In this document: positions 1 to 10,306 of the stretch, in pieces | Layout of the letters: every line of letters begins with the position of its first letter | How positions within the stretch are numbered: the first letter of the stretch is position 1 | Translations under genes and position numbers: made by a program | The notes under the pieces: model-generated | Database searches by the model: none | What the model saw: only the letters and a program-made list of their open reading frames with translations | What the model was told of the DNA's origin: nothing | Assembly (NCBI GenBank): GCA_024276995.1 | Contig: JAJRWB010000043.1 | Coordinates: forward strand, 66,830 to 130,829 | From: Candidatus Eiseniibacteriota bacterium | GTDB lineage: Bacteria; Orphanbacterota; Orphanbacteria; Orphanbacterales; Orphanbacteraceae | Length of the DNA: 64,000 bases | Reading direction: 5' to 3'

Positions 1-144
1 GACGTACTCGAGGAGCGTTTCCGCCCACCGGGCGAGAATCGGGCCGGAGAAGAAGAGCAGCGTGGCCATCACGGCGACGGCGCACACCGCCGCGAGGATC
101 GGCAGGGGGATGGTTCTTCTGGACAACGTGGACCCGGCTCTCAC
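1..144 (-). CDS. N-terminal fragment of a membrane protein (possibly TVP38/TMEM64 type)
   Basis: This is the first 48 codons of a gene that runs off the left edge of the window. From a GTG at 144 it reads a short basic N-terminus (RAGSTLSRRTIPL) followed by one strongly hydrophobic stretch (about residues 16-36), and then ARWAETLLEYV. An ATG two bases further out is followed directly by a stop, so GTG is the likely start. It lies just downstream of the glycosyltransferase on the same strand and is probably in the same operon. TVP38/TMEM64 membrane proteins often sit beside TIGR04282-type glycosyltransferases, which makes that family a reasonable guess, but too little is visible to show it. 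Confidence 0.5.
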   Translation of the reverse strand, partial: MRAGSTLSRRTIPLPILAAVCAVAVMATLLFFSGPILARWAETLLEYV

Positions 145-173
145 ATTTTCCGCGGGCTGCTCTTGAAAAGAAT

Positions 174-911
174 CTATTCGATCCACGTACCGAAGTCCTG
201 GCGCTTTCGCGACGTCGAACGGATCAGGTCATCCGCGGCGAGCTGGAGCGAGTCGATCCGGTCCACATCGTACCATCCGGGCAACACGCCCACGGTTAGG
301 TCGCCTCTGTGGCACGCTTCCGTCAATTCATTATACACATTCGGCGTGCTCCAGGAGATGCGAAGCAGTCCGGGGAGGGGCTCGTTCGCGCCGATTCCCC
401 AGACGCCCCCGTCCTTCGCCGGGCCTAGGACGACGTCGAAGAGACCGAGCATCTTATTCATGTCGATGAGGAATTCGAAGGGGAGCGAGGGGGCGTCCGA
501 GCCGATGAAGGCGATCTGTTCATAACCGAGGGCCGCCAGGTCGCTTTGCGTCGCCGTAAGTCGTCCGCCGAGATTCTCCCCTTCCTGCGGGAGGATATGG
601 GTGGCCAAGGGGAAAGCTTCCGCCGCCCATTGCCGATCGGAACGGTTCGCCGGACAGATCACGATATCATAGCTCTTTCTCACCGCCCCGAGCTCTTCCT
701 GGAGGAGAGCGATGCACCCTTCGTAGAACCGGAGGGCGTTCTCCTCGCCGATATCCTCGGCGAGCCGGGTTTTCACCTTTCCTGCAACGGGACAGCGGCA
801 GTAGATGGCGAGCGCCGGCTTCCCCGGTGTTTCGGGGGTACGCTCACCGCGTGTTTCGCCGTGCCGTCCGTCCGTCTTCCGTGCCGTGTCGCCGGCCTTA
901 TGCCGTTTCAG
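174..911 (-). CDS. TIGR04282-family glycosyltransferase (arsenosugar-type)
   Basis: This is a GT-A-like nucleotidyl/glycosyl transferase of about 210 core residues in the family named TIGR04282 'arsenosugar biosynthesis glycosyltransferase'. Visible motifs are CRCPVAGKVKTRLAEDIG near the N-terminus, GENLGGR, FIGSDAPSLP, and VLGPAKDGGVWGIG, which contains the conserved DGG. The usual Tyr after DGG is Val here. The start is unclear. There is no ATG or GTG between the end of the upstream gene and the first motif. A CTG at 911 overlaps the upstream TGA by three bases and has GGAGG about 12 nt before it, so translational coupling from a non-AUG codon is possible. A longer ATG version (to 1046) would lie inside the neighbour's Cys-rich tail. 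The family name comes from gene neighbourhoods, and the substrate is not known. Confidence 0.82.
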   Translation of the reverse strand: MKRHKAGDTARKTDGRHGETRGERTPETPGKPALAIYCRCPVAGKVKTRLAEDIGEENALRFYEGCIALLQEELGAVRKSYDIVICPANRSDRQWAAEAFPLATHILPQEGENLGGRLTATQSDLAALGYEQIAFIGSDAPSLPFEFLIDMNKMLGLFDVVLGPAKDGGVWGIGANEPLPGLLRISWSTPNVYNELTEACHRGDLTVGVLPGWYDVDRIDSLQLAADDLIRSTSRKRQDFGTWIE

Positions 912-3406
912 GGGCAACAGGCGCCTCCGTCGCCCCCGGCGTCGCCGCAGCAGGCGAAGTCGGGATCCACATCGTCCGATCGTCGCGTGATCAGAAACAT
1001 GCCGCGATACGGCGCGCGTTCGAGTTTCGCCGCCGTGTCGGTGCACACTTCCACCGGTACGTTCCGAGGGAACCAGTGCCCCTCCTCGTCGGACACGCCC
1101 TTGAAAGGGCCCTTGTATACGGCAAAGCGGCCGTCGTATACGCAGCCCGCCTTCTTCTCGTACTTGTAGCCTCTCACGGTGACCGAGAAGAAGCGGTGTC
1201 CTTCCACTTCACGCCAGAACGATCGTGAGAGTACCTGGATGCCGTAGAAGCCCGCCCTTTCGAAATACGAGAGGAGTTCCTCCTCGGTGAGTGCCCCGCT
1301 GATGCACTCCCCCCACAGCCGCGGATCCTGCCTCTGATGGACGGGCAGCTCCTCCTCGGAAACGATGTCGGAGATCACCATTCGCCCGTGGTCGTTCAGG
1401 ATCCTCCACATCTCCCAGAGCACCTTGCGCTTGTCGGGCGAGAGGTTGATCACGCAGTTCGACGTGACGAGATCGATCGATCGGTCGGGTGCGGGGATCT
1501 CTTCGAGGAAGCCCTTCCGAAACTCCACCACGTCGAAGCCGAGGTTCTTCGCCACGGCGACGCGCGCTTCCTCGGCGACTTCGAGCATGCTGTCGGTCAT
1601 GTCGACGCCGATCGCCCTGCCGGTGGGGCCGACCCTTTTCGCCGCGCGGAAGACGTCGATTCCCGCGCCGCTCCCGAGGTCGAGCATCGTCTCGCCCGGC
1701 GCGAGGGCGGCGACATCGATCGGAGAGCCGCAGCCATAGAAGCGCTCCACCACCTCCCTCGGGATATGGGCGAGGTCGTCTTCCGACGGCTGCACCGGGC
1801 AGCAGAGATCTTCCTGGGGCTTCTCGGCGGCGTCGCCGTAAAACCGGCGGACCATCCGGCGCGGGGCGTCGAGATCCCACGAGCGGACGCACTCCGAAGC
1901 GTTGGTGACCACCCCTTCGAGCGACTCCTCTACGGCGCAATGGGCGCCGCCGTCGCCCATACCGGTGACGATCACCGGCGCGTTGTATCCCGACTTGCCG
2001 TTCGAAACGACGAGGTCGCGGTCCGCGGCGATGTCGGCCATGGCGTCGTAGATCATCGCCTTGTGGAGATCGCAGTACGGGTCGTCCGCCACCGGCGAAC
2101 CGCCGTAGAAGTAGGCGTGTTCCACGTCGCCGCCGCCGCAGATGAACTTGAGGGGACATTCGCGACACTGATCCTTCTGCATCACCGTGTGGGCGCGAAA
2201 CCGCCGGGGAACCTCCCCGGACCGGAGGATCTCGCCCAGATCCGTCTCGTGAACGCTGCCGCACAGAAGTTCGGGAACATTCGCCATCGCCGCCGAGGGG
2301 TAGACCTTGCCGTCCGAGTAGACGCACAGGCTTCGCACCCCGGCGCTTGCGAGGTCCCGCCTCGTGCCGGCGGGATAGCGGAGCCGGCTCTTGTGGGATT
2401 CGAAGTTGTCGATCGTCACGCCGTGGCGCGCGCCGGTTTCCACCGCCTCGCGCACCACGTCGATCAGCTCGGCGTTCTCCGGGCCTTCGAAGTTGCCGTC
2501 CATCGCCCGACCCCGCCTGTGAAGCCAGAGGAGGTGGTGATTGCGAATACCGATTTCGCCGGCGAGGCGCGTGATGTTCGACACGTCGCCCGCGTTCTGT
2601 CGGGTGATCGCCGTGGTCAGCGTCGGGTTGAGTCCGCCGGCGACGGCGCGGCGCAGCGCGCCGGTGATCTTCCGGAACGAGCCGCTTCCGCGGATCGGAT
2701 CGTTCAACTCGGGCGTCGAGCCGTCGAGGCTGACTTGGAGAATCAACCTGTCCCGGTCATAGACGCCCAGCCGTTCGATCCGGCGGTCGTTGAGGAGCAA
2801 ACCGTTCGTCAGTATGGTGAGATCGGCCTGCGGATCGGACATCATCTCGTCGGCGAGGTCGAAGAGGTCCCTCCGGAGGAACGGTTCGCCGCCGGTGAAG
2901 TGGAAACGCTTCGCCCCGAGTCCGCGCGCTTCGACGATGAGGTCGATGATCTTGTCACCGGGAAGGCCGGTGTCGCCGAGCGGTCCGGACGAGACGAGAC
3001 AGTGGCTACACTCCAGGTTGCAGCTGTTGTTCGTGTGAATCCACAGTTCCTTCAGCTCCGTCGTTTCGAGAAACGGCTCCCGCCCGTGGTAGTCGCCGTT
3101 CCCCGTGCTGCCGATCGCTCCCGGCTCCTCGCCGTCGCCGAGAAGCACTTTCTGGCGAATCGCGTCACGGGCGACCGTCTCGACGTGCTGCCACGCCTTG
3201 GCATGCTCGAAACCGGTGCACGCCGCGTAGCGGCCGACGACTTCGCCGAAGGCGAGCTTTCCGTCGAACAGCTCGAGCACGGCGCGCGCCTTCCCATCGA
3301 CGGCGAGCCAGTTCGGTCCATCCCGGTGGACCATCAGGTTCCATCCCCTCCGCTCGAGGTCGTCGAGGGGGATCAGGCGGAGGCGTGTTTCGTTGGTCAG
3401 GATCAT
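908..3406 (-). CDS. Radical SAM/SPASM enzyme fused to an ArsM-like methyltransferase
   Basis: This 832-residue fusion has four parts. Residues 1-90 resemble a PqqD-type recognition domain. Residues 118-330 are a radical SAM core with the 4Fe-4S motif C129-x3-C133-x2-C136 and a FTGGEPFLR motif. A SPASM-like auxiliary cluster region follows (C361 to C445, including CRECPLKFICGGGD). Residues 534-745 are a class I methyltransferase with LDLGSGAGIDVF and VDMTDSML. The methyltransferase part keeps the cysteines typical of arsenite methyltransferases: CC at 535-536, YGCGSP (C559), SNCVINLS (C651) and GECISGAL (C701). The tail has a GH-F-R/VCTDT region and ends in a Cys-rich ACCGDAGGDGGACCP. In known arsenosugar pathways ArsM methylates As(III), and the radical SAM enzyme ArsS then adds a 5'-deoxyadenosyl group. 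Here both activities may sit in one chain, but the substrate is inference. Confidence 0.85.
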   Translation of the reverse strand: MILTNETRLRLIPLDDLERRGWNLMVHRDGPNWLAVDGKARAVLELFDGKLAFGEVVGRYAACTGFEHAKAWQHVETVARDAIRQKVLLGDGEEPGAIGSTGNGDYHGREPFLETTELKELWIHTNNSCNLECSHCLVSSGPLGDTGLPGDKIIDLIVEARGLGAKRFHFTGGEPFLRRDLFDLADEMMSDPQADLTILTNGLLLNDRRIERLGVYDRDRLILQVSLDGSTPELNDPIRGSGSFRKITGALRRAVAGGLNPTLTTAITRQNAGDVSNITRLAGEIGIRNHHLLWLHRRGRAMDGNFEGPENAELIDVVREAVETGARHGVTIDNFESHKSRLRYPAGTRRDLASAGVRSLCVYSDGKVYPSAAMANVPELLCGSVHETDLGEILRSGEVPRRFRAHTVMQKDQCRECPLKFICGGGDVEHAYFYGGSPVADDPYCDLHKAMIYDAMADIAADRDLVVSNGKSGYNAPVIVTGMGDGGAHCAVEESLEGVVTNASECVRSWDLDAPRRMVRRFYGDAAEKPQEDLCCPVQPSEDDLAHIPREVVERFYGCGSPIDVAALAPGETMLDLGSGAGIDVFRAAKRVGPTGRAIGVDMTDSMLEVAEEARVAVAKNLGFDVVEFRKGFLEEIPAPDRSIDLVTSNCVINLSPDKRKVLWEMWRILNDHGRMVISDIVSEEELPVHQRQDPRLWGECISGALTEEELLSYFERAGFYGIQVLSRSFWREVEGHRFFSVTVRGYKYEKKAGCVYDGRFAVYKGPFKGVSDEEGHWFPRNVPVEVCTDTAAKLERAPYRGMFLITRRSDDVDPDFACCGDAGGDGGACCP

Positions 3407-3677
3407 GTGCGCAAAGCTCCAGTGGATTCGGTCGTTCGTGTCGTCCGGGGCGCTCTACCGGTACCGCCCGCTTTTTCAGTATAGTATAGGGTCGTACGGG
3501 CGAACCAGCACGAAGGCGCCTTTCCGGTATGTCGGTTGAATGGTTCGAATCTTACGGTTCTCCCCGTGGAGACCGGTATTGAACCGATCGACCCGCCGTG
3601 AGAAGCTCGCCGAAAGCTCACCGGTCGCCCCGGCCGGTTTGGAGAAACGTATTCCTGATTCGAGAGGAGAACGGGCG
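3407..3677. promoter_or_regulatory. Divergent intergenic region with a -10-like repeat
   Basis: This 271-bp gap separates the minus-strand arsenic-type operon from the plus-strand peptidase. On the minus strand two overlapping TATACT hexamers (3478-3483 and 3483-3488) lie about 75 bp upstream of the fusion gene start and could be its -10 element. I cannot find a good -35 at the right spacing. No promoter for the peptidase can be read with confidence. An open frame upstream of 3678 exists but looks like chance coding. Confidence 0.35.
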
Positions 3678-5579
3678 ATGACGCGGATCCGCGGCGGTTG
3701 CAGGATGGTCTTTCTTCTATGGATCGCCGTTTGCGCGATTCTTCCCGGTGCCGCGAGGGCGGAAGGGGAGAAGGTGGCGGCGGTAAGCCGCGCGGCGATC
3801 GACGACCGGTACAAGTGGAATGTGGCGGCTCTATTCGCGAGCGACGAGGAGTGGGAGGCGCGGTTCGGTCGTCTCGAGGAGGCGATCGGCGCGCTCGAAA
3901 AGTACAGGGGCACCCTCTCACGTTCTCCCTCGGCGCTTCTCGAATGGTTCGCCGCGCGGGACAGCGTGGCGCGCCGGTATGACATGCTCAGCGTGTACGC
4001 GTCTCTTCGCGCCGACGAGGACACCCGTGTTGCGCTCTACCAGGACATGGACGCCAGGGCATCGCGCCTCGGAACGCTTCTGAAGGAGAAAACCTCCTGG
4101 GCCGATCCCGAGATCGCCGCGATCGACGCCGATACGCTTCGCGCTTTCATCGCCCGCAAAAAGGGTCTCGAGACGTATCGGTTCCACATCGAGGACGGCA
4201 TCCGCCGGAGGGCGCACGTGCTCTCACCTCGGGAGGAGGAGCTTCTCGCCATGTCGGGTACCGCTCTTGCCGCTCCGGCGAAGATCGCCGGTATGCTGCG
4301 AAACGCCGACATGGAATTCCCCGACGTCATCGACGAAGAGGGTCGCGAAGTGACACTCACCCCCGGGCGGTTCGAGTCGTTCCGCGCCTCTGCCGACGCG
4401 CGACTGAGACGGGACGCCTACATCGGCATGCTCGGCGCGTACGAGGGGAAGGCGAACACGCTGGCGGCCGCCCTTTCGGGGACGGTGGAAGCGCATATTT
4501 TCCATGCCCGCGCGAGGGGATTCGATTCATCCCTCGAGGCGTCGCTCTTTCGGAACAACATCCCGCCGGAGGTGTACAGCAGCCTGATCGACGCGGTGTC
4601 GAAGAATATCGAACCGGTGCATCGCTACGTCGCCCTCAGGAAAAAGGCGCTCGGCCTAAACGAAATCCATTATTGCGATCTCTACCCTTCTCTCGCGGAA
4701 AACCCGCCGGGCGCCGTCTCGTGGGACGAGGCGGTCGAAAAGGTGCTCGAATGCGTCCGTCCCCTCGGCGCGGAGTACGCCGGAGCGCTGCGCGAAGGGC
4801 TCCGTTCCGGCTGGGTCGATGTCTACGAGAACGAGGGAAAACGGAGCGGCGCCTACTCGAACGGGGCGCACGGTTCGATGCCGTACATTCTGCTGAATTT
4901 CGGCGACAACATCGACGGCGTCTTCACACTCGCCCACGAGACGGGCCACTCGATGCACTCTCTTCTCACCGGCCGCCGCCAGGCGTATGTGAACTCCGAC
5001 TACTCCACCTTCGTTGCCGAGGTCGCGTCCACGGCGAACGAGGCGCTTCTCCAGCACCGGCTCGAGGAGGACGCCGCCGGCGGGGAAACGGACGCGCGGA
5101 TCTACATTCTCGACAGGTTCCTCAAGGATATGATGGGCACCGTGATCCGCCAGACGATGTTTGCCGACTTCGAATTGACGATGCACGAAATGGCGGAGCG
5201 GGGCGAATCGCTTACCCCCGACGCACTCTGCACGGTGTACGCCGCACTCGTGAGAAAATACTACGGTCCTGAAATGGTGATCGATCCCGAAACCGCCTAC
5301 ACGTGGGCGAGGATCCCCCACTTCTTCTACAATTTCTACGTGTTCCAATACGCGACGAGCTACGCGGCGTCATACGCCATCGCCGAGAAGATCCTCGCCG
5401 GCGAGCCGGGCGCCGTGGAGAAATATCTCGGTCTGCTCGCCGAGGGGGGGGGTGATTACCCGATCGAAGAGCTGAAACGCGCCGGCGTCGACATGACCAC
5501 TCCCGCGCCGGTGGAGGCGGTGATGCGGGCGTTCGCCGGCGCGGTGAACCGTCTCGAGAAGTTGATCGACGCTTCGTGA
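3678..5579 (+). CDS. pepF: M3-family oligoendopeptidase F with signal peptide
   Basis: This is a zinc metallopeptidase of 633 residues. The active site HETGH (HExxH, residues 420-424) lies in FTLAHETGHSMHS, and the downstream glutamate region EVASTANEALL supplies the third zinc ligand, as in the M3 family. The start at 3678 is chosen because it gives a basic stretch (MTRIRGGCR) followed by a hydrophobic core and an AARAEG cleavage site. A start at 3540 would bury this signal. Oligoendopeptidase F is usually cytoplasmic, so an exported copy acting on peptides in the periplasm or outside is unusual. The gene stands alone on the plus strand, 99 bp before a DUF2779 gene. Family assignment is firm; peptide specificity cannot be seen. 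Confidence 0.93.
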   Translation: MTRIRGGCRMVFLLWIAVCAILPGAARAEGEKVAAVSRAAIDDRYKWNVAALFASDEEWEARFGRLEEAIGALEKYRGTLSRSPSALLEWFAARDSVARRYDMLSVYASLRADEDTRVALYQDMDARASRLGTLLKEKTSWADPEIAAIDADTLRAFIARKKGLETYRFHIEDGIRRRAHVLSPREEELLAMSGTALAAPAKIAGMLRNADMEFPDVIDEEGREVTLTPGRFESFRASADARLRRDAYIGMLGAYEGKANTLAAALSGTVEAHIFHARARGFDSSLEASLFRNNIPPEVYSSLIDAVSKNIEPVHRYVALRKKALGLNEIHYCDLYPSLAENPPGAVSWDEAVEKVLECVRPLGAEYAGALREGLRSGWVDVYENEGKRSGAYSNGAHGSMPYILLNFGDNIDGVFTLAHETGHSMHSLLTGRRQAYVNSDYSTFVAEVASTANEALLQHRLEEDAAGGETDARIYILDRFLKDMMGTVIRQTMFADFELTMHEMAERGESLTPDALCTVYAALVRKYYGPEMVIDPETAYTWARIPHFFYNFYVFQYATSYAASYAIAEKILAGEPGAVEKYLGLLAEGGGDYPIEELKRAGVDMTTPAPVEAVMRAFAGAVNRLEKLIDAS

Positions 5580-5581
5580 TT

Positions 5582-5599
5582 CCGCGCGATCGCGCGCGG
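5582..5599 (+). terminator. Short GC hairpin after the peptidase gene
   Basis: A perfect 7-bp inverted repeat, CCGCGCG and CGCGCGG with loop ATCG, starts 3 nt after the pepF stop codon. No T-tract follows, so this may be a weak terminator or only a stable mRNA 3' end. Confidence 0.35.
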
Positions 5600-5678
5600 C
5601 TCGGCGGTTCGTTCGACGTGATATACCGGAAGCCGGGTCCGGCGAACGTCGCCCGGTTCCCCATTACACGGGAGATCG

Positions 5679-7145
5679 ATGGGCCGGAAAAGACGATATC
5701 TCGACGAAGGGACGGTGCTCGTCGCCGGGAAGTGCATGAAGCTGGCGTGGTACCGCGTTCACCGGCCGGGGCGTGGTGGGGGAAACGCCGCGGCGAGGCT
5801 GGGGCGGCGCCACAAGAGGGATGTGACCGTACTCGTGCGCGCCCTTTTCCCCGGCGGGCGGCGGATCGTGGAGAGAAATATCGTCCGCGCGCGCCGATCG
5901 ACGAGGAAGGCGCTTTGCGCCGGAAAGACGGTTCTCTTCCGCCCGGCGTTCCTCCACGACGGCGTGGCGATCCGTCCGGACATATTGGAGAGGCGAAGCG
6001 ATGGAGCGTGGAATGTTTGGGCGGTGAAAGCGTCGTCGGGTGCGGAGCGGCACTTCCAGGGACTGGCGGTGGAGGTTCATATTTTAAGGAATCTGGGCTT
6101 CCGCGTCGTACCGGGGGTGATCCATCTCGACAGGAACGCTACCGTCCGTTCGGCATCGATCTTGAAAAGGACGGTATGCGCCCGGCAGGTCGAACGCCTC
6201 CTTCCCGAGATCGGTTCGAGAATCCGCGAGCTGAAACGCCGCGTGCGGATCGACTATCCCCGTCCCTTCCCGTTGAAGCGCATCTGCGGAAGGTGTGAAA
6301 GGCTTCACCGCTGCCGGCCCGACCTTCCCGAGCGGAATGTATTCCTCCTATTCCAGGGGGACGGTGGTTGGCGCGTGGTGGACGAACTGATCGAGCGGGA
6401 GATCCTCGATCTCGATGAACTTCCCGACGAGATGGAGCTGACCCATGTGCAGAAGAGACAGATGGCGGCGTTCCGCAGCGGAAGGGGGGCGGTATCGGGA
6501 GATCCGGCGCGATCTCTCGCGGAGCGGACCGAATACCCTCTCTTCTTCCTCGACTTCGAAACGGTTTCCCCGGCCGTTCCGCGTTATCGAGCGCAGCACC
6601 CGTTCGATATCATTCCCTTTCAATGGTCGTGCCATCTCGTGCGTGGGGAAGGGGGACCGGCCGAGCATTTCGGGTATCTCCATGACGACCGGGACGGCGG
6701 GGATCCCCGCCGGGGGGTGATCGAGTCGCTTCTCTCCCTTCTCGGCGGGGAAGGAACGATCCTGGTGTATTCCGGCTACGAACGTCGGGTGATCGAGAGG
6801 ATGGCGGAGGTTCACCGCGATCTCGCCCGTCCGTTGCGCGCCCTCGTGTCGAGAATCTTCGATCTTCACGAGTTCGTCGAGCATTGCTACTATGTGCCGC
6901 GGTTCGGCGGTTCGTTTTCGATGAAGAGCGTATACGCCGCCCTTCACGAGGGACGCAGTTACCGCGACCTAGGCGTGTCCGACGGCACCGCCGCCGTGGA
7001 GGCGTTTCTTCGCCTCGTCGAGGAGAAGCCGCCGCCGGAAGAGCGGAAACGGATCCGGGAGAACTTGATCGAGTACTGCAAGAGAGACACGGCGACCATT
7101 GAATCCCTTTACAGGAGACTTATGAAAGTGCGTGCCGAGTGTTGA
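5679..7145 (+). CDS. DUF2779 protein: Cas4-like Fe-S domain plus RNase H-like domain
   Basis: This 488-residue protein has the DUF2779 layout. The N-terminal half resembles a Cas4/PD-(D/E)XK nuclease, with four cysteines placed to hold an Fe-S cluster (C19, C203, C206 and C212; the last three in CGRCERLHRC). The C-terminal half starts with LFFLDFETV (D292, E294), an exonuclease-like acidic motif, and continues through DLHEFVEHCYY to EYCKRDTATIESLYRRL. In the nuclease half the expected D...ExK triad reads D101...A115-V-K117, so the central Glu is replaced by Ala and this site may be inactive. The start has GGGAGATCG just before the ATG. The last codons overlap the next gene. The biological role of this family is not established. 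Confidence 0.85.
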   Translation: MGRKRRYLDEGTVLVAGKCMKLAWYRVHRPGRGGGNAAARLGRRHKRDVTVLVRALFPGGRRIVERNIVRARRSTRKALCAGKTVLFRPAFLHDGVAIRPDILERRSDGAWNVWAVKASSGAERHFQGLAVEVHILRNLGFRVVPGVIHLDRNATVRSASILKRTVCARQVERLLPEIGSRIRELKRRVRIDYPRPFPLKRICGRCERLHRCRPDLPERNVFLLFQGDGGWRVVDELIEREILDLDELPDEMELTHVQKRQMAAFRSGRGAVSGDPARSLAERTEYPLFFLDFETVSPAVPRYRAQHPFDIIPFQWSCHLVRGEGGPAEHFGYLHDDRDGGDPRRGVIESLLSLLGGEGTILVYSGYERRVIERMAEVHRDLARPLRALVSRIFDLHEFVEHCYYVPRFGGSFSMKSVYAALHEGRSYRDLGVSDGTAAVEAFLRLVEEKPPPEERKRIRENLIEYCKRDTATIESLYRRLMKVRAEC

Positions 7146-7774
7146 ACGGGAAAATCATCGATATTTCGAGAACCCTTTCGGCCGGTGCGCCGGTGTGGCC
7201 GGGCGACGCTCCCTTCCGGCTCGAGAGGAAGATGAGCCTGGAGGGGGGCGATCCGGTGAATCTCACCACGCTCCACATGAGCCCCCACACGGGAAGTCAC
7301 GCCGACGCACCGGGCCACGTGGATCGTGCCGGCGCTTCGATCGGCGCGCTGCCCCTTGAACCGTTCATCGGCCCCGCGCGGGTGCTGACCGTCGCGCCGG
7401 GCGAGGATCGGCTCATCGCCACGGCCGCCTTCGCTTCGTGCGACCCGGCCGATCCACCCAGGATTCTTCTTCGCACCGGCGCCGACGGGACACAGCCCTC
7501 CTTCAAGGAGAACTTCCCGGCCCTCTCGCCGGAGGCGGCGGTTCAACTCGTGGCGGATGGCGCGCGCCTCGTGGGGATCGACACCCCCGGTGTGGACCGA
7601 TTCGACAGCGTCGACCTGCCGGTACACCGCCACTTCGCCCGAAGCGGCGTCTGCTGGCTGGAGAATCTCGATCTCAGCGGGGTGGTCGACGGGATCTACA
7701 CCCTCGTCGCCCTTCCGCTCAAGATCGAAGGGGGGGACGGGAGTCCCGTGCGAGCGATTCTGATCGATATCTAA
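7139..7774 (+). CDS. Cyclase / kynurenine formamidase-like metal hydrolase
   Basis: This 211-residue protein belongs to the cyclase family (KynB-like arylformamidases and related metal-dependent hydrolases). The signature HTGSHADAPGH (consensus HxGTHxDxPxH), which binds the metal, is near residues 49-59. A second block is GIDTPGVDRFDS...VHRHF, and a LENLDLSGV motif follows. The start is a GTG that overlaps the stop of the upstream DUF2779 gene by seven bases, so the two are probably co-translated. There is no other kynurenine-pathway gene nearby, so the substrate may be something else. Confidence 0.88.
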   Translation: MLNGKIIDISRTLSAGAPVWPGDAPFRLERKMSLEGGDPVNLTTLHMSPHTGSHADAPGHVDRAGASIGALPLEPFIGPARVLTVAPGEDRLIATAAFASCDPADPPRILLRTGADGTQPSFKENFPALSPEAAVQLVADGARLVGIDTPGVDRFDSVDLPVHRHFARSGVCWLENLDLSGVVDGIYTLVALPLKIEGGDGSPVRAILIDI

Positions 7775-7846
7775 CAAAATACTATTCAATGTATTATAAG
7801 GCTCGACATGCCGCGGGCGACGAAAAGGGGTTGTCGATGTGATATA

Positions 7847-7862
7847 AATATGATATCATATT
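7847..7862. promoter_or_regulatory. 16-bp perfect palindrome upstream of the SPFH operon
   Basis: The sequence AATATGATATCATATT is a perfect 16-bp palindrome in an AT-rich patch inside otherwise GC-rich DNA. It lies 30 bp upstream of the SPFH gene start and just before its Shine-Dalgarno AAAGGAGG. A TATAAAT -10-like element overlaps its left edge. It may be an operator, possibly for the ribbon-helix-helix protein encoded downstream in the same operon. Confidence 0.5.
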
Positions 7863-7891
7863 GATGTCACCAGCCATAAAGGAGGAAATCG

Positions 7892-8767
7892 ATGGCTTCT
7901 GAAAAAACCCGCTCCGCCGCATCGGGCTACGCGATGCTGGTTCTCAACATTCTCCTTTACCCCCTCGCGATCATCGGTTTCATCGCCGGTGTGGCGGTCG
8001 GCCACGCCCTCCTGATCTTCGCCATGATCGTTCTCCTGCTGCTCAATGTATTCATCTCGATCGGCTTCTTCGTGGTGAACCCGAATGATGCGCGGGTGCT
8101 CGTCCTCTTCGGCACCTACAAGGGAACGGTGAAAAAGAACGGCTTCTTCTGGGCGAATCCTTTCTACCGAAAGAGAAAGATCACCCTGCGGGCGAGAAAC
8201 CTGAACGGCGATCGGATCAAGGTGAACGATAAGGAAGGGAACCCGATCGAAATCGCCGCCGTCGTGGTGTGGCGCGTCCAGGAGACGGCAAAGGCGTCGT
8301 TCGACGTCGATGATTACCAGGAGTACGTGGTGGTGCAGAGCGAGGCGGCGGTACGTCACATGGCGGGAAGCTATCCGTACGATACATTCGATTCGAAGGA
8401 GGATGTGATCTCCTTGCGCGGCGGGGCGGACCAGGTGAACCGCGCACTCGAGAAGGAACTCACCGAGCGCTTCGCTCGGGCGGGTATCGAGGTGATCGAG
8501 GCGCGCATCAGCCATCTCGCCTACGCGCAGGAGATCGCCGAGGCGATGCTTCGCCGGCAACAGGCTTCGGCCGTTGTGGCGGCGAGGACGAAGATCGTCG
8601 AGGGTGCCGTCGGCATGGTTCGGCTCGCCCTCGAATCGCTTGCCCGGGAGGGAGTGGTGGAACTCGACGAGGAAAAGAAAGCGACCATGGTGAGCAACCT
8701 CCTCGTCGTTCTCTGCGGCGAGTCGCAGGTCACCCCCGTTGTGAACACGGGAACACTTTACCAGTAG
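7892..8767 (+). CDS. SPFH/band-7 domain membrane protein
   Basis: This is a 291-residue SPFH (stomatin/prohibitin/flotillin) protein. Two hydrophobic segments (about residues 15-35 and 38-62) anchor it. The SPFH domain follows from FFVVNPNDARVLVLFGTYKGT, with typical blocks IEIAAVVVWRVQET, VVVQSEAAVRHM, and the coiled tail AYAQEIAEAMLRRQQASAVVAART. SPFH proteins form oligomeric rings on membranes. The start has a strong AAAGGAGG. A ribbon-helix-helix gene begins 11 bp downstream, and this pair recurs in other bacteria, which suggests a linked function. Confidence 0.93.
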   Translation: MASEKTRSAASGYAMLVLNILLYPLAIIGFIAGVAVGHALLIFAMIVLLLLNVFISIGFFVVNPNDARVLVLFGTYKGTVKKNGFFWANPFYRKRKITLRARNLNGDRIKVNDKEGNPIEIAAVVVWRVQETAKASFDVDDYQEYVVVQSEAAVRHMAGSYPYDTFDSKEDVISLRGGADQVNRALEKELTERFARAGIEVIEARISHLAYAQEIAEAMLRRQQASAVVAARTKIVEGAVGMVRLALESLAREGVVELDEEKKATMVSNLLVVLCGESQVTPVVNTGTLYQ

Positions 8768-8980: not shown

Positions 8981-9898
8981 TCACACCGGTTTTCGCGCGA
9001 AGAAGCCGACACTCGCGGCGACCACCCGGTTCGCCTCGAGAAACGATTCGACCAGCTCCTTCGACAGCCCTCCTCCGCAACCGCAGCCGCTAACTTCCTC
9101 CGAAACGACAAGCCGCGCGATTGCCGCACAGTCGTACTCCTGCCTCGATCTGGCTTCCACGCCGGCGAGTCCCGCCGCGGCGAGACCCTCTTTGTACTCC
9201 TTTTCGGAGATGGCGCCCGCGATGCACGAACCGTGGAGCGCCGGAAGGGAGCGGAGAAAGTCGGGCGCCTCGTCGAGCACCACGTCGGAGACGAGCATCC
9301 GCCCGCCCGGCTTCAAAACCCTGGCGATCTCGGCGAAGACCTTCTCCTTCTCGGGGGAGAGATTGATCACGCAGTTGGAGATCACCCAGTCGACCGATTC
9401 CGAATCGACGGGCAGCTCTTCGATGATTCCCTTGCGGATGTCGACGTTGTTCAGGCCGGCGGCGGCCGCGTTCGCCTTCGCCCGTTCGATCATTTCGTCG
9501 GTCATATCGACACCGATCGCCTTTCCGGTTGGTCCTACGATCCGCGCGGCGAGAAGGATATCGATACCCGCCCCCGACCCGAGGTCAAGCACCGTGTCCC
9601 CCTCGGCGATTTCGCTCAGCGCAAGCGGGTTGCCGCAACCGAACGAATTGACCGCCGCGTCGCGCGGCAGGGAGCGGAGTTCCTCGTCGGTGTACCCGGC
9701 GAGAAGGGCGAGTACCCCTTTCGACGGACTCACCACTTTGCCGCAACAGCTTTCGGACGACGGCGCGCCGCCGGAGGAGGCAGTGGAAGCCGGACCCTCC
9801 ATGCCGTCTCGCGCAGATTCCTCTTCGGACGGGGGCCGGGAAACGGCTTTCGCATAAGCCTCCTTCACTTGTTCCCGGATCTTTTCGTGGTCGCTCAT
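8981..9898 (-). CDS. arsM: Arsenite S-adenosylmethyltransferase
   Basis: This 305-residue ArsM uses S-adenosylmethionine to methylate arsenite. SAM-binding motifs are VLDLGSGAGIDILLAA and GVDMTDEMIERA. The arsenic-binding cysteines expected of the family are present: CC at 51-52, C88 in SFGCGNP, C176 in SNCVINLS and C225 in GSCIAGAI. A C-terminal CGCGGG is an extra thiol cluster. The start at 9898 has AGGAG six bases upstream; a longer ATG version to 9964 would overlap arsR. It lies 10 bp downstream of arsR on the same strand, so it should be induced by arsenite. Unlike the fusion at 908-3406, it has no radical SAM part. Confidence 0.93.
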   Translation of the reverse strand: MSDHEKIREQVKEAYAKAVSRPPSEEESARDGMEGPASTASSGGAPSSESCCGKVVSPSKGVLALLAGYTDEELRSLPRDAAVNSFGCGNPLALSEIAEGDTVLDLGSGAGIDILLAARIVGPTGKAIGVDMTDEMIERAKANAAAAGLNNVDIRKGIIEELPVDSESVDWVISNCVINLSPEKEKVFAEIARVLKPGGRMLVSDVVLDEAPDFLRSLPALHGSCIAGAISEKEYKEGLAAAGLAGVEARSRQEYDCAAIARLVVSEEVSGCGCGGGLSKELVESFLEANRVVAASVGFFARKPV

Positions 9899-9908
9899 CT
9901 GTTTCTCC

Positions 9909-10232
9909 TCACTCACTCCTTTGTGGATATCGGCATGAAATGCCGCTCGGACAGCATTGCTCAATATAATCTGCGATATTCCGGAGTCGCTTCACGATTT
10001 CAGGGAACCGCACACTGTAATGTACCTCTTTCCCCTTCCTCTCCGACCGGACGATTCCCGCCTCGCGCAGCGTGGAAAGGTGCCTCGAAACAACCGAAAG
10101 ATCGACCTCGATGCAGCACGCTGTTTCGCTCACCGTGGCGGGTCGGCCGAGATTGATCAGTTGAGCGAGGAGCCTGAGCCGGGTCGGATCGCCGAGCGCC
10201 TTGTAGAACCGGGGGTCGCCGAAGGAATCCAA
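9909..10232 (-). CDS. arsR: ArsR-family arsenical repressor
   Basis: This is a winged-helix ArsR/SmtB repressor. The body DPRFYKALGDPTRLRLLAQL leads into the recognition helix DLSVVSRHLSTLREAGIV and the wing RKGKEVHYSV. The C-terminal cysteines read CCPSGISC, that is, Cys at i, i+1 and i+7. This is the spacing of the As(III) site of Acidithiobacillus ferrooxidans ArsR (C95, C96, C102), not the classical ELCVCDL helix site. A further CC precedes the recognition helix. I chose the TTG at 10232 because AAGGAG lies six bases upstream. The longer GTG version (10268) would start about 3 nt from the predicted transcription start and include the palindromes. Confidence 0.9.
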   Translation of the reverse strand: MDSFGDPRFYKALGDPTRLRLLAQLINLGRPATVSETACCIEVDLSVVSRHLSTLREAGIVRSERKGKEVHYSVRFPEIVKRLRNIADYIEQCCPSGISCRYPQRSE

Positions 10233-10250
10233 TCGAATCTCCTTTGTTGC

Positions 10251-10306
10251 GCAATTGAACAATTGCACCTACTTGCAAGTGTAGATGATTCTTCATGAGA
10301 GTGCAA
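10251..10306 (-). promoter_or_regulatory. arsR promoter with two operator-like palindromes
   Basis: Reading on the minus strand, TTGCAC (10306-10301), a 17-bp spacer and TACACT (10283-10278) form a sigma-70-type promoter. A perfect 10-bp palindrome ACTTGCAAGT (10271-10280) overlaps the -10 box. A second inverted repeat, GCAATTG-AA-CAATTGC (10251-10266), lies between the likely transcription start and the Shine-Dalgarno. Both are placed for autorepression by ArsR. Confidence 0.65.

Follow-up and report, generated by a model that had tools for sequence, protein, structure and literature searches.

The window analysed here, a 64,000-nucleotide stretch of contig JAJRWB010000043.1 (positions 66,830 to 130,829; GenBank assembly GCA_024276995.1, Candidatus Eiseniibacteriota bacterium), encodes a protein in which a PqqD-like region, a radical S-adenosylmethionine (SAM) core, a SPASM-type domain and an ArsM-type arsenite methyltransferase are joined in one chain, hereafter the fusion. 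On the strength of residue conservation and gene context, we propose that the fusion is probably a single-chain replacement for the ArsM and ArsS enzymes of arsenosugar biosynthesis, uniting a methylase with an arsenic-alkylating, probably adenosylating, radical SAM enzyme. According to passages of PMC8552651 and PMC12159101 that cite earlier work, ArsS and ArsM make up the arsenosugar pathway of cyanobacteria (Synechocystis), with ArsS as the radical SAM enzyme that joins a 5′-deoxyadenosyl group to arsenic. A second system is outlined in PMC8552651: in arsinothricin biosynthesis the radical SAM enzyme ArsL forms the carbon-arsenic bond by way of a 3-amino-3-carboxypropyl group, and ArsM methylates.

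Domain architecture and conserved residues

An earlier reading made from the sequence alone had described one open frame with these four parts, and this is borne out by an 832-residue open reading frame (ORF) free of internal stops, by Pfam and NCBIfam, and by an AlphaFold2 model. Pfam detected Radical_SAM at residues 126-276 (E 7e-19), SPASM at 357-418 (E 4e-5) and the class I methyltransferase family Methyltransf_31 at 570-719 (E 1e-31). Three NCBIfam models matched the C-terminal third, each below its cut-off: arsenite methyltransferase PRK11873 (residues 531-730, 6e-67, 226 bits against a cut-off of 263), arsenosugar ArsM NF038099 (residues 519-801, 166 bits) and arsinothricin ArsM NF040538 (178 bits). 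The PqqD-like region escaped Pfam at the N-terminus of the window protein, but PF05402 was found in 26 of 50 fusion homologues (best 1.4e-7), and the model (mean predicted local distance difference test score 87.3; predicted template modelling score 0.88) aligns from residue 12 to 463 with the sactipeptide maturase 5wgg (Z 32.3, root-mean-square deviation 4.2, 413 residues).

Meanwhile, residues 531-811 superpose on the ArsM structures 4fr0, 6cx6 and 5evj (Z 24-27, 36-39% identity), and the solved ArsM/AS3MT structures overall gave Z values of 22-27. The domain shares its fold and four cysteine positions with 4fr0, 5evj and 8xt7, which, unlike the fusion, are stand-alone enzymes of methylation pathways. 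CC535/536, C559, C651 and C701 fall within the range of the structural alignment, and we take them to be the counterparts of ArsM C44, C72, C174 and C224.

Residue conservation was counted across 50 aligned fusion homologues. The radical SAM cysteines C129/C133/C136, the ArsM cysteines CC535/536, C559, C651 and C701, and also C361 of the SPASM region, C788 and the terminal pair C830/C831 were invariant (50/50); every residue number given in the sequence-only reading was correct, as was its cysteine-rich tail. The CX3CX2C and GGEP motifs were also invariant in these homologues, which span at least 11 phyla. The SPASM cysteines C414, C417, C423 and C445, retained in the window protein, were absent in 8-11 of the 50 and missing as a set in 8-9. 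Since these cysteines can be lost while those of the radical SAM and ArsM parts never are, the auxiliary cluster appears dispensable; the function of the family is predicted to depend on the radical SAM cluster and the arsenic-binding thiols. In the linker between SPASM and ArsM, an SNCV-type motif contributes C506 (window 1889-1891), present in all 50 sequences, including those that no longer have the SPASM cysteines; this residue is a possible arsenic relay or cluster ligand.

Distribution of the fusion

Two relatives-based searches and a scan of named genomes recovered the architecture in about 60 loci, mostly at full length and from at least 11 phyla, a spread that rules out a chance or misassembled fusion. 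Some of these homologues are 59-69% identical to the window protein. All or nearly all carriers are uncultured. They belong to Planctomycetota (including the anaerobic ammonium-oxidizing (anammox) Scalindua, Anammoxibacter and Brocadiaceae), Nitrospirota, Acidobacteriota, Armatimonadota, Omnitrophota, Wallbacteria, Zixibacteria, Latescibacterota, Desulfobacterota/Dadabacteria, Hydrogenedentota and Lindowbacteria. Two divergent fusions of about 1000 residues, from G316 and G287 (loci L140 12-3053, minus strand, and L139 7402-10368, plus strand), carry DUF5714 as a third, C-terminal domain; neither the SPASM cysteines nor the ArsM CC pair is retained in them. The one at L140 is followed in its operon by genes for a GT2 glycosyltransferase, DUF2064, a rhodanese, a VTT protein, an Fe-S protein and a processive GT2.

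The fusion in ArsS-type cassettes

Recurrent neighbours of the fusion were collected without a prior list and then sought around 20 ArsS genes, of which 18 gave usable loci. In a Pfam census of 136 fusion neighbours, the most frequent families were PHO4, MerA-like reductases, DUF2064, VTT and DUF547. The ArsS loci displayed much the same company, with PHO4 at 7, the reductase, VTT and DUF2064 at 9 each, and TIGR04283 at 8. At least one of five cassette partners (PHO4, MerA-like reductase, VTT, TIGR04282 (DUF2064) and TIGR04283) occurred at 35 of 48 fusion loci and at least two at 21, against 0 of 23 control windows. From these shared neighbours it follows that the fusion is part of an ArsS-type cassette, and its homologues are not consistently found away from arsenic-pathway genes. 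A PiT-type PHO4 transporter and DUF547 are regularly encoded beside both ArsS and the fusion (L144, L150, L151, L155, L159, L163 and many fusion loci); transport of arsenate/phosphate or of the product are candidate roles of the transporter.

Genome-wide co-occurrence was assessed in a sample of 386 genomes (13 with the fusion, 65 with ArsS, 308 with neither) and in a set of 47 fusion genomes. In the latter, TIGR04282 exceeded its cut-off in 40 genomes and TIGR04283 in 39, while ArsS was present in only three. In the larger sample, TIGR04282 was encoded by 11/13 fusion genomes, 58/65 ArsS genomes and 39/308 others (fusion versus other genomes, Fisher p=2.9e-8, or 5.7e-7 without the window's own family; these values are indicative, as the sampled genomes are related to one another). 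No genome of this sample combined the fusion with ArsS. In the window's own family, TIGR04282 accompanies the fusion in G000 and G004, and is also found in G001 and G005, where ArsM adjoins a separate radical SAM gene; three other genomes have no fusion, no such pair and no TIGR04282. The arsenosugar link drawn in the sequence-only reading is thus upheld by the identity of the cassette, by the co-occurrence of TIGR04282 and TIGR04283, and by the separate ArsS-ArsM single chains described below.

These data also bear on a simpler role, in which the fusion is an arsenic-methylating detoxification enzyme with a degenerate or accessory radical SAM part, and the adjoining glycosyltransferase is a chance neighbour. 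A canonical ArsR-ArsM detoxification pair does lie nearby, but that second ArsM already serves detoxification, the radical SAM motifs are unchanged across 50 homologues, and the association with TIGR04282 is pronounced. We therefore regard a purely detoxifying role as very improbable.

Several observations weigh against the replacement of ArsM and ArsS by the fusion. The absence of ArsS from the 13 fusion genomes is not significant taken alone (p=0.14), and TIGR04282, only a hypothetical equivalog, is found in 13% of the genomes that have neither ArsS nor the fusion. Classical ars resistance genes were not enriched among the near fusion neighbours of the Pfam census. By NCBIfam, the radical SAM part is less close to ArsS than to the Rv1681, MftC and PqqE-type SPASM enzymes, and the ArsM domain scores slightly higher against the arsinothricin model than against the arsenosugar model (178 versus 166 bits, both below cut-off). 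We also inspected 20 loci with TIGR04282 but without ArsS or the fusion: ArsM with an adjoining radical SAM gene was encoded at one, a radical SAM gene at two more, and a MerA-like reductase, with or without VTT, at four others. As most of these loci lack ArsM plus radical SAM, TIGR04282 on its own is a weak marker, and we did not retain it as specific to the pathway.

Relation to ArsS and other radical SAM systems

The fusion scored 43 bits against the ArsS model (TIGR04167, rSAM_SeCys in NCBIfam), whose cut-off is 300. Nevertheless, among 44 fusion genomes that lack ArsS, it was the best-scoring match to that model in 41, and hhalign aligned ArsS residues 6-290 nearly end to end with residues 123-424 of the fusion, a stretch that takes in the auxiliary region (Prob 98.4). 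In both proteins a radical SAM core bearing CX3CX2C comes first and a region for an auxiliary cluster after it, and both are paired with ArsM and share TIGR04282, TIGR04283, VTT, MerA-like reductase and PHO4 as partners. Unlike ArsS, the fusion has a PqqD-like domain, is covalently joined to its ArsM, and carries a different set of SPASM cysteines with no equivalent of the cysteine in the ArsS motif YDCDF. In the ArsM tree, fusion domains form one clade (97/98) and canonical ArsMs another (100/95), with the ArsS-associated ArsMs on the fusion side, outside the canonical clade. The radical SAM tree groups the fusion, ArsS and the separate radical SAM proteins encoded beside ArsM together, apart from seven other radical SAM proteins of the same genomes (97/93), but its outgroups are too remote and its ArsS branch too long for this grouping to carry weight. 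Leaving that tree aside, the fusion probably works like ArsM plus ArsS, yet its radical SAM half is no member of the ArsS family.

Because the radical SAM part is not ArsS and the ArsM part matches the arsenosugar and arsinothricin models about equally, the main live alternative is that a different group is transferred. The fusion might then form another carbon-arsenic bond, with 3-amino-3-carboxypropyl as in ArsL or with some other metabolite, and yield an organoarsenical other than an arsenosugar that is decorated by the glycosyltransferases. The PqqD-like and SPASM parts fit such a departure, as do extra genes at some fusion loci, for example a processive GT2 or DUF3179. The pairing of a radical SAM enzyme with ArsM is also the logic of arsinothricin biosynthesis, as set out in PMC8552651, although ArsL and ArsM are separate proteins. 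On the other hand, the neighbours match those of ArsS loci, the 25 best NCBIfam matches of the fusion include no ArsL family, and the arsinothricin neighbour arsQ was not among the recurrent fusion neighbours seen. On balance we consider a different transferred group unlikely, while keeping it in view.

The sequence-only reading had also raised a peptide substrate. In this case the radical SAM half would be a maturase of ribosomally synthesized and post-translationally modified peptides (RiPPs), with the PqqD-like domain recognising a leader peptide, and the ArsM half would methylate the peptide or separately detoxify arsenic. The combination of PqqD-like, radical SAM and SPASM folds is indeed that of CteB-type (5wgg) and other PqqD/RRE-SPASM RiPP maturases, and the structural match to 5wgg is close. 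Nevertheless, across about 60 loci no small ORF near the fusion was conserved beyond close Scalindua-type relatives, although a remote precursor is still possible; the survey yielded only families limited to those relatives, along with scattered pieces of genes that had not been called. In further contrast to RiPP maturases, the fusion has an attached ArsM, its SPASM cysteines can be lost as a set, and its neighbours are those of the ArsS cassette. Considering the lack of a conserved precursor near the fusion and the dispensable auxiliary cluster, we set the peptide-maturase reading aside: a peptide substrate is unlikely, and a RiPP maturase as a whole highly so.

Proposed mechanism and significance

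Returning to the fusion as a replacement for ArsM plus ArsS, we infer a substrate, an order of steps, a radical and a product as follows. The ArsM domain would bind As(III) at the four conserved cysteine positions, and its SAM-dependent methylation would give mono- and dimethyl-As(III). A second SAM would then be cleaved reductively in the radical SAM domain, yielding a radical, most likely 5′-deoxyadenosyl as in ArsS, which would be joined to the methylated arsenic (dimethylarsenite) within the same chain. Covalent fusion and the cysteine tail may prevent release of the toxic trivalent intermediate from the protein, and the TIGR04282 and TIGR04283 enzymes would subsequently build an arsenosugar or arsenolipid. 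A radical SAM ancestor of the peptide-maturase type may have passed on the PqqD-like and SPASM domains, which now probably serve in structure, docking or electron transfer.

Among the forms that arsenic takes in biology, arsenosugars and arsenolipids are major ones. To our knowledge, no enzyme other than ArsS has been assigned to the key carbon-arsenic step of the arsenosugar pathway. Many uncultured bacteria may make arsenosugars through an enzyme other than ArsS. If so, a second carbon-arsenic enzyme, drawn from another radical SAM family and spread over at least 11 phyla, would enlarge the range of presumed producers considerably, adding anammox bacteria and groundwater lineages missed by ArsS-based surveys. 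The fusion also offers a self-contained protein for studies of radical SAM catalysis on a bound arsenical. We advance a broader idea only tentatively and with some doubt: one polypeptide might carry inorganic arsenite all the way to an organoarsenical by a radical SAM mechanism that arose independently of ArsS and possibly adds a group other than 5′-deoxyadenosyl. A large set of phyla without cultured members (anammox Planctomycetota, Acidobacteriota, Nitrospirota, Omnitrophota and others) might thereby make an arsenolipid or other arsenic natural product that has yet to be described.

In the open-access literature we found no description of the PqqD-radical SAM-SPASM-ArsM architecture, although absence there proves little. 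The fusion is apparently undescribed within the literature searched; the suggestion of an undescribed system stands to that extent, and we make no claim beyond it.

Other arrangements of ArsM with radical SAM genes

The sequence-only reading had treated ArsM and ArsS as separate proteins in known pathways, which requires correction, as genuine ArsS and ArsM share one frame in three genomes (G081, G190 and G194), in both domain orders. The ArsS part of these ORFs scored 336-413 bits against the ArsS model. They resemble the fusion in joining a radical SAM enzyme to ArsM in a single chain, but they contain a genuine ArsS, lack a PqqD domain and vary in domain order. In G001, G005, G089 and G334, ArsM instead adjoins a small separate radical SAM gene, and this arrangement, ArsM plus a separate Rv1681-like radical SAM protein without ArsS, is a third form of the pathway. 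These pairs are found at loci L044, L045, L046 and L205 (G334:C41:59000-73000), the last accompanied by PHO4, DUF2064 and a processive glycosyltransferase (GT2). The occurrence of fusions, ArsS-ArsM single chains and adjoining pairs shows that ArsM and radical SAM genes have been joined repeatedly. G344 has a stand-alone ArsM (L134 7700-8689, minus strand) whose place in the tree is close to the fusion clade and which has no adjoining radical SAM gene.

Genomic neighbourhood in the window

The TIGR04282 gene next to the fusion encodes a product of 125-126.5 bits, slightly under the curated cut-off of 134. It has no ATG; translation probably starts from the TTG at position 917, and GGAGG lies 6 nt upstream, at 928-924. 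This start overlaps the 3′ end and stop of the fusion gene, suggesting that the two genes are translationally coupled. The TIGR04283 gene downstream of VTT passes its cut-off (211 bits against 182), and the order fusion-TIGR04282-VTT-TIGR04283 is also kept in G004, a genome of the same family.

Table 1 Coordinates of the fusion, its domains, neighbouring genes and ArsS-ArsM single chains (window positions unless a locus is named)
Feature	Position	Strand	Basis or remark
Fusion coding sequence, PqqD-like/radical SAM/SPASM/ArsM	908..3406	minus	832 residues, single ORF, no internal stop
PqqD-like N-terminal domain, residues 1-95	3122..3406	minus	PF05402 in homologues; structural alignment to 5wgg
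Radical SAM core, residues about 117-345	2372..3058	minus	PF04055; structure
CX3CX2C motif, C129/C133/C136	2999..3022	minus	conserved 50/50
SPASM-type auxiliary-cluster domain, residues about 346-470 (C361, C414, C417, C423, C445)	1997..2371	minus	PF13186
ArsM domain, residues about 514-810 (CC535/536, C559, C651, C701)	977..1867	minus	NCBIfam; solved ArsM/AS3MT structures
C-terminal cysteine tail (C819, C820, C830, C831)	911..976	minus	C830/C831 kept 50/50
TIGR04282/DUF2064 glycosyltransferase-like gene	174..917	minus	TIGR04282; probable TTG start
VTT (TVP38/DedA-type) membrane protein gene, start portion	1..186	minus	extends beyond the window; L039 16123-17016
TIGR04283 glycosyltransferase gene, after VTT, just beyond the window	L039 15431-16126		passes cut-off
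Canonical ArsM (arsenite methyltransferase), separate gene	8981..9898	minus	284 bits, cut-off 263; tree
ArsR/SmtB-family regulator adjoining canonical arsM	9909..10268	minus	Pfam, NCBIfam
ArsS-ArsM single-chain ORF	L184 2475-4304	minus	
ArsS-ArsM single-chain ORF	L185 3511-5472	minus	
ArsS-ArsM single-chain ORF	L186 4013-6001	plus	

The canonical ArsM and its own ArsR (8981-10268, minus strand) are sited about 5.6-7 kb from the fusion gene, and G004 likewise has an ArsR-ArsM pair 11 kb from its fusion (L040 1936-3142). Between the fusion and this pair, the window encodes oligopeptidase-like, nuclease-like, cyclase-like and SPFH/stomatin-like proteins (3540-8767, plus strand). Counterparts of these genes are found near the G004 fusion (L040 3397-12074), indicating that the region is partly syntenic.

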